A stretch of DNA of 64,000 nucleotides from Pyrinomonadaceae bacterium (GTDB lineage Bacteria > Acidobacteriota > Blastocatellia > Pyrinomonadales > Pyrinomonadaceae): NCBI GenBank assembly GCA_026129865.1, contig JAHCHG010000012.1, positions 1-64,000 of the forward strand. Reading direction: 5' to 3'. The position numbers and the translations under genes are program-made. How positions within the stretch are numbered: the first letter of the stretch is position 1; every line of letters starts with the position of its first letter. Under the pieces are notes generated by a model. That model made no database searches and was not told where the DNA came from. It saw nothing but the letters and a program-made list of their open reading frames with translations. Of this stretch, positions 21,354 to 56,366 are shown in pieces.

Positions 21354-21360
21354 TTTATGG
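21348..21360 (+). repeat. Left direct repeat of the alaS insertion
   Basis: AAATAATTTATGG. In alaS frame it reads AAA TAA TTT ATG G; the TAA ends the N-terminal alaS fragment and the ATG (21357) starts the toxin gene. It differs from the right copy by one base. Confidence 0.75.
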
Positions 21361-21653
21361 ATATCGAATATCTGCTGAACGACATCTTGTTTGAATGGGA
21401 AACGGGAAAGGCTTCGGCAAATTTGAAAAAGCATTCGATTTCATTTGAAAGTGCCTGCGAGATTTTTTTCGACCCGTTTCTGAAAGTCGCTGAAATAGAA
21501 GTTGTTGACGGTGAAAAGAGAGAAACGGTCATCGGATTAAATTTGGAATGGAAAACTTTGTTTGTCGTTTATGTGATGCGCGAAGAATCGATCAGGTTAA
21601 TTTCGGCAAGAATCGCAATGAAAGGGGAAAAAGTAGATTATGAAAATCAATGA
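21357..21653 (+). CDS. BrnT-type toxin
   Basis: 98 residues. The opening 'FEWETGKASANLKKHSISFE' and 'EIFFDPFL' followed by 'GEKRETVIG' and 'IRLISARIAMKGEKVDYEN' are the BrnT pattern (FEWDxxKAxxNxxKHGVSF ... RxISARxAxxxExxxYE). BrnT toxins are RelE-fold ribonucleases that arrest translation. The ATG lies 3 bp after the alaS fragment stop and in the same frame; no separate promoter is evident, so it may be expressed with alaS. The 3' end overlaps the antitoxin gene by 14 bp. Confidence 0.88.
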   Translation: MDIEYLLNDILFEWETGKASANLKKHSISFESACEIFFDPFLKVAEIEVVDGEKRETVIGLNLEWKTLFVVYVMREESIRLISARIAMKGEKVDYENQ

Positions 21654-21927
21654 ATTGAAAAAACGTCTTCAAAAAGATCGCCCAACGCGCGAAGTCGTTT
21701 TAAATATTCCCGAAGACGTGGCTGAAGATTTGGCGAAAATCGCGGCGAAATTAGGATTTTCAAACCCGGAAAGTTTGATGCGGGCGTATATCGGACAAGG
21801 TTTGCGCGTTGACCTCAAACGCTTTGAAAGCAAGGAAATGTCGAATTTGGTTGAAAGCCTGCGTCGTCACGGCGTAAAAGACGAAATCATCGCGTCGGCT
21901 TTATCGGATTTGAAAAAGGTCGCCTGA
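21640..21927 (+). CDS. Ribbon-helix-helix antitoxin, partner of the BrnT-type toxin
   Basis: 95 residues. A ribbon-helix-helix-like core 'REVVLNIPEDVAEDLAKIAA' with 'LGFSNPESLMRAYIGQGLRV' is followed by a helical tail 'VESLRRHGVKDEIIASALSD'. It is not a canonical BrnA (no WRPPGxGYQxRxN motif) but occupies the antitoxin position directly downstream, overlapping the toxin gene by 14 bp. GAAAGGGGAAAAAG just upstream of its ATG serves as the ribosome site. Likely binds both the toxin and the operon DNA, by analogy. Confidence 0.8.
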   Translation: MKINELKKRLQKDRPTREVVLNIPEDVAEDLAKIAAKLGFSNPESLMRAYIGQGLRVDLKRFESKEMSNLVESLRRHGVKDEIIASALSDLKKVA

Positions 21928-21929
21928 AT

Positions 21930-22142
21930 CAATGTATCGCGGAGCGATTAGGTGAATTTAGCCGTGTGATTTATCGCACGGTTATTTGACAGAAAAGATT
22001 TATGGTCGCGTCAGTGACAATTGAAAATTAGACGAAATTCAATCGTTGCTGACGCAACGAGAAATAATTTGCTTGATTTTTCCGTGCGTTGAAACACACG
22101 GCTAAATTCGATTTGTCGCTACGCGGCATAAGCAAATACTCA
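21930..22142. repeat. Hairpin (REP-like) inverted pair at the right end of the insertion
   Basis: GAATTTAGCCGTGTG at 21954-21968 is repeated exactly in reverse complement at 22095-22109. Inside are hairpins CCGTGTG-atttat-CGCACGG, CGTTG-ctgacg-CAACG and CCGTG..CACGG. The first has the same ATTTAT loop and flanks (TAGCC..) as the hairpin at 12122 but different stem bases. No credible gene is present here. Confidence 0.75.
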
Positions 22143-22155
22143 AAATATTTTATGG
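22143..22155 (+). repeat. Right direct repeat of the alaS insertion
   Basis: AAATATTTTATGG. In frame: AAA TAT TTT ATG G (K Y F M). Its ATG at 22152 is the most plausible start codon for the C-terminal alaS fragment, though no Shine-Dalgarno precedes it. Confidence 0.75.
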
Positions 22156-24137
22156 GAATTTACGAAGATATTGACGAACAAAAACAATTTGCCTGCCGCG
22201 TTATCGCGGATCATGCGCGGACGACGGCGTTTGCGATTGCGGACGGCATTTTGCCGGGCAATGAGGGCAGAAATTACGTTCTTCGAAAGATAATGCGGCG
22301 TGCTATCTATCACGGGCGCGAGCACCTCGGCTTTAACGATTTGTTCTTTCACAAGGTTTGCGATTTTGTCGTCGGCGAAATGAAGGAAGCGTATCCGGAA
22401 CTCGAAGTTCAACGCGATTTCATCGGAAAAATGGTCCGGCTCGAAGAACAGCGTTTCGGAACGACGATGACGGTCGGGCTGCAGAAATTAAATGAATATT
22501 TTGCGTCGAACAAAGAAGCCGATTTTATTGAATTTGCGAAACTTTACGACACGTTCGGAACGCCGCGCGATCTCGTCCGGATCAAACTCGAAGACAACGG
22601 CATCGAGATCGGCGAAAGTGATTTTAACGCGAAGTTTGACGCCGCGCTGCAGGAACTTCAGCAGCAAAGCGACATCGGAAAAACCGAGCGAAAGTCTGCG
22701 ATCAGCCCTATTTATCAAGAGATCGCGGAAAAAACGGGTGCGAGCGTCTTCCACGGTTATGATTTGACTGCGGTCGAAAATGCAAAGGTCGTCGCCATTG
22801 TCAAAGGCGATAAAACGGCGGACGCATTAAGCGAAGGCGAAGAAGGCTTGATCGTTTTAAACGAAACGCCGTTTTACGCCGAAGCCGGCGGTCAGGTCGG
22901 TGATACGGGACAAATTGTCAGAACCGCCTGCGGTAGCGGGCGGTTGAACGGCGACGGTTCGGGCGATAGGAAGGTATCAAATGAATTAGGAGTGGAAGTT
23001 AAACCATCCTCTACCGCAGATGGTACTGACAGTTCGGCGAACATTCGTGTTTTAGACACCTTTGCGCCTACTCCCGGGCTTATTCTTCACAAATCGAAAG
23101 TTCAAAGCGGTTCGATCAAGGTTGGAGATGTTGTTACAGCGACCGTCGATGTCGCGAAACGCGACGCAACGCGGCGGAATCATACGGCGACGCATCTTGT
23201 TCATGCTGCTTTGAAGGAAGTTTTGGGAACGCATGTAAAGCAGGGCGGTTCGGTCGTTGCACCCAATTATCTGCGGTTCGATTACACGCATTATCAACCC
23301 TTAACGCCAGACGAGATCCGCGAGATCGAAGATCTTGTCAACCGATATATCTTGCAGAATGAACCCGTTACGACCAGCGTAATGGCGATCGAAGAAGCGA
23401 TGCGTTGCGGCGCGGTCGCTTTGTTCGGCGAAAAATACGGTTCGGATGTGCGGGTCTTGTCGGTCGGCGGCGGCGAGTTTTCGAAAGAACTTTGCGGCGG
23501 AACGCATGTTCGCGCAACGGGCGACATCGGTTCGTTTAAGATCACTTCCGACGAATCGGTCGCTTCGGGTTTACGGCGAATTCGCGCAATCACCGGTTTA
23601 GACGCGTTTGAGCGTTTTCGTGAAGACGAAAAACTGATCGACGAAGCGCTCGGACATTTGAAAACGCAGCGCGATCAACTTCCGAACGCCGTCGAAAAAC
23701 TGCAGGAAGAGCTGAAAAAAATTCGCAAAGAAAACGACGAACTAAAGATGAAGATCGCCACCGGCACGATCGGTTCGGCTTCTTCAAACGGCGACGAAGC
23801 GAAGGAAATAAAAGGAGTTAAGGTCGTCGCCAAGATCGTCGACGGTCTGGACAAAGGCGGCATGCGGCATCTTTCGGACACGCTTTTAGCAAAGATGAAA
23901 TCGGGTGTGGTTGTTCTGGCTCGAACGGAAAACGACAAGGTTTCATTTATTGTCAGAGTTTCTGATGATCTAACAGATCGTGTGAAAGCCGGAAAGATCG
24001 TCCAGGAGATCGCGCCGATCGTCGGGGGTCGCGGCGGCGGCAAACCCGACATGGCGGAAGGCGGCGGAACGGATGCTTCGAAACTCAACGACGCGCTTGA
24101 CGCAAGTTATAATTCCGTCGAAACAATGCTTGGATGA
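22152..24137 (+). CDS. alaS: Alanyl-tRNA synthetase, C-terminal fragment (tRNA-binding, editing, C-Ala)
   Basis: 661 residues if started at ATG 22152 (a TTG at 22089 lies in repeat DNA). It begins at 'FACRVIADHARTTAFAIADG' of the tRNA-recognition domain with 'NEGRNYVLRKIMRRAIYHGR'. Editing domain motifs follow: 'ETPFYAEAGGQVGDTGQ', 'RNHTATHLVHAAL' (HxxxH zinc site) and 'CGGTHV'. Then come a coiled coil ('KLQEELKKIRKENDELKMKI') and the C-Ala domain ('GRGGGKPDMAEGGG'). About 40 extra residues around 22922-23030 derive from an inverted hairpin repeat. It is in the same frame as the N-terminal fragment. Either the two halves assemble, or the locus is inactive and another alaS exists. Confidence 0.9.
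   Translation: MGIYEDIDEQKQFACRVIADHARTTAFAIADGILPGNEGRNYVLRKIMRRAIYHGREHLGFNDLFFHKVCDFVVGEMKEAYPELEVQRDFIGKMVRLEEQRFGTTMTVGLQKLNEYFASNKEADFIEFAKLYDTFGTPRDLVRIKLEDNGIEIGESDFNAKFDAALQELQQQSDIGKTERKSAISPIYQEIAEKTGASVFHGYDLTAVENAKVVAIVKGDKTADALSEGEEGLIVLNETPFYAEAGGQVGDTGQIVRTACGSGRLNGDGSGDRKVSNELGVEVKPSSTADGTDSSANIRVLDTFAPTPGLILHKSKVQSGSIKVGDVVTATVDVAKRDATRRNHTATHLVHAALKEVLGTHVKQGGSVVAPNYLRFDYTHYQPLTPDEIREIEDLVNRYILQNEPVTTSVMAIEEAMRCGAVALFGEKYGSDVRVLSVGGGEFSKELCGGTHVRATGDIGSFKITSDESVASGLRRIRAITGLDAFERFREDEKLIDEALGHLKTQRDQLPNAVEKLQEELKKIRKENDELKMKIATGTIGSASSNGDEAKEIKGVKVVAKIVDGLDKGGMRHLSDTLLAKMKSGVVVLARTENDKVSFIVRVSDDLTDRVKAGKIVQEIAPIVGGRGGGKPDMAEGGGTDASKLNDALDASYNSVETMLG
22922..23026. repeat. 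In-frame REP-like inverted pair inside alaS
   Basis: Copy A (22922-22945) has stem ACCGC/GCGGT around CTGCGGTAGCGG. Copy B, inverted (about 23002-23025), has stem ACCAT/ATGGT around CTGCGGTAGAGG. The core CTGCGGTAG is invariant and the stems differ by paired substitutions. The segment is translated without a stop into a Gly/Ser/Asp-rich insert in the editing domain. Confidence 0.75.
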
Positions 24138-55913: not shown

Positions 55914-56366
55914 TCAATCCCAAACATACCGCTCGTCGTAATCAATCTCGTATTTTTTCAACAAAGCCCTGAATTCGTCCTTGAAATCCTGTTTTTCATG
56001 ATGCTGTTTTTGATTTTTGATATATCTGATAACCGTTTCAACCTGCGACTGCCCGATTGAAAACGCTCCGTAACCTTTTTGCCAATAAAATTCGGAGAAT
56101 TTTGCGTGTTGTTTTTTAATCCACGTCGAACTATCGCGTTTGATGTCGCCGATGAGTTCGGAAACGTCAATTTTGCGCGGTAATGAAACGAGCAAATGGA
56201 TATGATTCGCCGTTCCGCCCGCGATAATCAATTTCGCGCCGTTGTTTTCGACGATGCCGTGAATGTATTTGTAAAGTTCGGCTTCGATTTCCGGCGCGAT
56301 CAAATCACGGCGGTTTTTCGTCGAGAAAATGATGTGAGCCAAAAATTTGAACAACGATTGCGGCAT
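55914..56366 (-). CDS. REP-associated tyrosine transposase (Y1, IS200/IS605-like)
   Basis: 150 residues, full length for the family. The HUH motif is His55-Ile-His57 in 'GGTANHIHLLVSLPRKIDVS', and the catalytic Tyr115 is in 'QVETVIRYIKNQKQHHEKQD'. 'HIIFSTKNRRDLIAPEIEAE' is the usual beginning. These enzymes cut single-stranded DNA next to hairpins and mobilise REP sequences. All catalytic residues are present, so it may be active. The gene is flanked by its own hairpins within the element. Confidence 0.95.
   Translation of the reverse strand: MPQSLFKFLAHIIFSTKNRRDLIAPEIEAELYKYIHGIVENNGAKLIIAGGTANHIHLLVSLPRKIDVSELIGDIKRDSSTWIKKQHAKFSEFYWQKGYGAFSIGQSQVETVIRYIKNQKQHHEKQDFKDEFRALLKKYEIDYDERYVWD

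Follow-up and report, generated by a model that had tools for sequence, protein, structure and literature searches.

Inverted REP doublets with a spacer that form one long hairpin, the REPINs, have been described for Pseudomonas, where they are extragenic and tied to RAYT (PMC3116915). Intragenic GTAG/CGTC REPs are found as dimers coding for 20–30 residues in genes of several genera, tRNA synthetases included, and different REPs are located at about the same recB site in two Xanthomonas species (Di Nocera 2013; PMC3733652). Rickettsia palindromic elements (RPEs) are, according to the part of PMC10969869 that cites Ogata 2000 and 2002, mobile palindromes in frame within many unrelated proteins, including core enzymes. 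A split alanyl-tRNA synthetase (AlaRS) is known from Nanoarchaeum equitans (NEQ211/547; PMC3655853). Thus, the occurrence of in-frame palindromes in proteins of Rickettsia and of intragenic REPs is established; what looks new is a split bacterial AlaRS and the recurrent capture of REP families that are unrelated to each other by a single AlaRS loop. In the open-licence literature, no description of repeated AlaRS-loop capture, of a high intragenic REP share or of a bacterial split AlaRS was found, and nothing was found on Pyrinomonadaceae in combination with alanyl-tRNA synthetase.

The 64-kb stretch of Pyrinomonadaceae DNA analyzed here (the window) harbors alaS with an inverted pair of palindromes in the editing domain (Table 1). 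As stated in a preliminary description of this DNA, the core CTGCGGTAG is present there in two inverted copies, 22928–22936 (+) and 23011–23019 (−). These are its only exact copies in the window, for which 0.06 are expected by chance, and two copies were reached by 0 of 100 shuffles. The inverted arms around the core span 22913–22949 and 22998–23034, and the reported stem swap between the copies was found again (ACCGCC/GGCGGT versus ACCATC/GATGGT). The insert had been placed at 22922–23026 with about 40 residues; it is indeed in frame, with 38 residues, but the true element is slightly longer. Comparison with other genomic copies set its limits at GTCAG (22917) and CTGAC (23030), i.e., 114 bp or 38 codons. 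The alaS frame passes through this segment without a stop and gives VRTACGSGRLNGDGSGDRKVSNELGVEVKPSSTADGTD, and the peptide of the insert region, VRTACGSGRLNGDGSGDR..., is rich in Gly, Ser and Asp. The element strand folds into one long hairpin, much more strongly than shuffled sequences (RNA z −5.7, DNA z −3.1). With its pair of inverted REP units, short spacer and capacity to fold into a single long hairpin, the element shares the architecture of Pseudomonas REPINs. An Rfam search of the window returned tmRNA only.

Table 1. Features of the alaS region and a further gene of the window.
Feature	Position	Strand	Basis
alaS N-half ORF, AlaRS catalytic part, 296 aa	20463..21353	+	PF01411 positions 1-259, 374 bits
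brnT-like toxin gene in split alaS	21357..21653	+	PF04365 BrnT_toxin, 75.9 bits
brnA-position antitoxin candidate	21640..21927	+	ORF overlapping brnT; no Pfam match; named by position only
Second, different inverted repeated element in alaS split	21938..22125	.	15-bp exact arms 21954-21968 / 22095-22109
alaS C-half ORF, tRNA-recognition, editing and C-terminal domains	22152..24137	+	PF01411 positions 262-511, PF07973, PF02272
Expanded editing-domain beta-hairpin loop, 52 residues	22911..23066	+	loop lengths, coding DNA, predicted structure
REPIN-like element, inverted pair of REP units, 114 bp, in-frame 38 residues	22917..23030	.	pattern and copy comparison
Left REP unit GTCAGAACCGCCTGCGGTAGCGGGCGGTT	22917..22945	+	exact match to genome-wide pattern
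Right REP unit GTCAGTACCATCTGCGGTAGAGGATGGTT	23002..23030	-	exact match to genome-wide pattern
Y1_Tnp gene (IS200-like or RAYT)	56010..56351	-	best Pfam match of the genome's 13

A genome-wide search, which had been proposed as a check, revealed a dispersed repeat. The pattern as first given matched exactly 30 times, and a longer pattern with one mismatch allowed detected 56 REP units in 31 loci of the 4.4-Mb genome; the reversed controls gave 0 matches in both cases. Most loci are inverted pairs with fixed GTCAG/CTGAC ends and spacers varying in length and sequence, and unpaired single REP units are also present. The two variable stem pairs covary over the 56 units (AT/AT in 23, GC/GC in 17, GT/AC in 4, AC/GT in 3, and wobble GT/GC in 5), and the stem pairing of the 37 distinct sequences was matched by 0 of 10,000 shuffles. 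Paired substitutions thus keep the hairpin, as had been suggested. The designation as a REP stands as far as the architecture is concerned, on which the label rests since no REP-associated transposase flanks the repeat. In GTAG-tagged REPs the tag is located at the palindrome end, whereas here GTAG occupies the loop of the hairpin, with GCAG, TAAG and TCAG as variants. The window-type REP pattern was present in 14 of the 60 genomes searched, the window's own counted.

A survey based on pattern matches and retrieved loci placed 14 of the 31 loci in frame within 12 ORFs, with the other 17 being intergenic or at gene edges. This intragenic share is far above that of described REPIN genomes, and it also sets the repeat apart from the GTAG/CGTC REPs, which are mostly extragenic. 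Since 14 loci are in frame within 12 protein genes, the phenomenon is genome-wide. Besides AlaRS, ten hosts are backed by Pfam: SufD, a ThrA-type aspartokinase/homoserine dehydrogenase, methionine synthase (MetH), a xanthine-dehydrogenase-type subunit, a UvrD-like helicase, a PurL-type (AIRS domain) protein, a GH15/esterase, a dihydropyrimidine-dehydrogenase-type reductase, kynureninase, and an FAD monooxygenase that may be read as kynurenine monooxygenase. The twelfth host appears from its sequence to be an M1-type peptidase. Nearly all hosts use the frame that gives SEPSAVADGL...(K/Q)P(P/S)ATA(D/G)GSD. AlaRS is the exception, its left REP being read as VRTACGSGRL; the usual frame would meet TGA there. 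As in Rickettsia, palindromic mobile repeats thus lie in frame inside unrelated proteins across the genome, and in the case of AlaRS the repeat is absent from homologues. The sequence, the phylum (Acidobacteriota) and the paired REP architecture differ from those of the RPEs. This shows that mobile palindromes serve as raw material for the protein sequence of core enzymes outside Rickettsia as well. As a separate observation, an M1-peptidase-like ORF (G000:C5:91874-94219) next to a window-type REPIN contains a tandem array of four peptide copies; this peptide, with ITPKGVTL at its end, resembles a translated REP of the type found in genome G008.

Comparison with the AlaRS of relatives and a structure prediction, both suggested at the outset, located the insert within the protein. 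The loop between the GGQVGDxG motif and the P..G...H motif comprises 52 residues here, as compared to about 16 in the majority of the family and in less closely related Acidobacteriota; thus, the insert is absent from these relatives. In the AlphaFold2 model, confident beta strands at residues 274–278 and 318–328 flank residues 282–313, for which the pLDDT is below 50, and the insert is therefore predicted to be located in a flexible, disordered beta-hairpin surface loop. Each of the three proposed checks thus supports the interpretation in the preliminary description.

In several Pyrinomonadaceae relatives the loop is enlarged too, with different DNA. The G008 loop contains a pair of GTAAGAGTGACGC... 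palindromes, of which there are 40 copies in G008 and none in G000, G005 and G032, and the loop of G005 contains a pair of GTCAGTAGCCC... palindromes (8 copies in G005). Both are REP families, as proven by copy number, and are unrelated to that of the window. The loops of G009, G028, G029 and G033, which possibly share an older insertion, contain REPs related to that of the window, complete or in part, with GGTACTGAC ends, and tandem-like repeats were found in those of G015 and L106. On the AlaRS tree, which was built without sparsely filled columns, loop enlargement requires at least 10 changes when the small enlargements in G002 and L166 are counted as enlarged, and close sisters such as G031 and G005 differ in the loop insert. 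Since the inserts of the window, G008 and G005 are mutually unrelated, one AlaRS loop has been entered by three or more unrelated repeat families. As the inserts come from different repeat families, one insertion in a common ancestor of all lineages was not retained as an explanation. Different REPs at one site and REP dimers within genes, tRNA synthetases included, are also known for the GTAG/CGTC REPs; the entry of several unrelated repeat families into one loop of one enzyme distinguishes this case from the RPEs. The loop thus amounts to a natural replicate experiment, having been struck by several unrelated repeats.

With high confidence, we regard 22917–23030 as a translated REPIN-like mobile element that inserted into alaS and was kept because the frame was preserved and the loop tolerates added residues, with the same loop being struck independently in other genera. 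A copy of the dispersed inverted REP pair would have entered alaS and would have been retained with the reading frame intact at a beta-hairpin loop on the surface of the editing domain. Stem pairing would be selected for the DNA element and not for the protein, on which the likely filter is purifying selection against harmful insertions; the peptide would then be neutral, and a positive function of the insert is not indicated. The element probably spreads by RAYT/Y1-type single-strand copying, which is favored by the inverted hairpin doublet, the lack of an apparent target duplication and the presence of Y1 transposases. No Y1_Tnp gene flanked by the window's REP was found, and no copy of this REP lies within 1.5 kb of the 13 Y1_Tnp matches. 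Since the genome is 95.8% complete, this absence of a REP-flanked RAYT is not final. The name REPIN-like was chosen instead of REPIN because no RAYT with the same REP was found; the link to RAYT is a further difference from the Pseudomonas REPINs.

The lack of such a RAYT would also be explained if a conventional DDE transposase mobilized the element as a MITE whose terminal inverted repeats are 29 bp long, and the fixed GTCAG/CTGAC ends of the inverted paired units and the variable GTAG within the hairpin loop, unlike that of GTAG-tagged REPs, fit this idea. However, a target-site duplication was not apparent in the flanks on inspection, every unit forms a hairpin of its own whose stem covaries, single unpaired units exist, and Y1 transposases are abundant (13 matches), so that a MITE appears unlikely, if still worth considering. 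We give much less credit to an adaptive extension of the editing domain, or an RNA hairpin regulating alaS, kept by selection on alaS. The strong RNA hairpin and the enlargement of the same loop in many relatives could be read in this way, but the inserts differ completely in sequence and length between genera, the same peptide is present in a dozen unrelated enzymes, and G031 and G005 differ in having an insert although they are close sisters. It is even more improbable that alaS, being split in two and carrying the insert, is a pseudogene in decay that mobile DNA has disrupted: it is single-copy, with no other alaS found in the 95.8% complete genome, the two ORFs are intact and retain conserved motifs, and a whole related genus has the split as well. 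An ordinary loop expansion resembling REPs by chance, for which the Gly/Ser/Asp-rich composition might speak, is refuted by the exact DNA match to a repeat with 56 copies and has next to no probability.

The REPIN-like element is not the only repeat DNA in alaS, and the earlier claim that the gene was hit at least twice holds. The two alaS ORFs are separated by about 800 bp (21354–22151) containing brnT, an overlapping ORF and then a second inverted element. Besides matching itself in inverted orientation, the latter recurs on contigs C9, C15 and C19, in one case next to a Y1_Tnp gene. The catalytic, editing (tRNA_SAD) and DHHA1 domains of AlaRS are all present, spread over the two ORFs, and judged by the sequence the two-ORF enzyme is probably active.

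In G005, G022, G023 and G029, alaS is likewise split at this linker, with different cassettes filling the gap. The cassette is a Y1 transposase in G005 (Pfam-tested; L048/L096) and in G022 (by sequence likeness; L053/L079); in G023 (L077) and G029 (L056/L090) it appears to be a nucleotidyltransferase-like ORF. In G032 the halves are on opposite strands, separated by about 120 kb, and in G008 they are on different contigs. In L112, L116 and L126 a C-half ORF is present, with no N-half within roughly 6 kb upstream. In the related genus g9, the N-half ORF has only 273–371 aa in all 39 genomes with a full N-half match, the C-halves having been read for G008 and G032. A two-ORF AlaRS thus occurs across g9 and scattered in other genera (records L081, L084, L059, L049, L112, L116 and L126). 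On the AlaRS tree the split requires at least five changes, and split genomes can have unsplit sisters (G031 with G005, G002 with G029).

The window and its relatives therefore look like a case of bacterial split alanyl-tRNA synthetase. As in N. equitans, AlaRS is encoded by two separate genes, but the hosts are bacteria whose genomes measure about 2.5–5.7 Mb, and in several genomes with adjacent halves selfish genes occupy the gap. The split provides a system in bacteria for studying how an essential synthetase passes from one chain to two. On balance, Pyrinomonadaceae alaS probably has two fixed sites that act as hot spots for selfish DNA. The editing loop would take up unrelated REPs in frame, and the linker after the catalytic core would be opened repeatedly by toxin, Y1-transposase or nucleotidyltransferase-like cassettes, yielding a working two-polypeptide bacterial AlaRS with halves able to drift far apart.

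Two further observations concern the linker. The split C-halves (G000, G005, G008, G022, G023, G029 and G032) share the start M(S/G)xYExxxExxxFxCRVIADHAR, while most unsplit sisters lack it and have YE-xETxxGFAMRVIADHAR instead, which suggests convergence or transfer of the C-half. L058 (G016) and L110 encode an unsplit AlaRS with an in-frame insert at the linker where others are split, with GGTPSVSEGAGSEATE repeats in G016.
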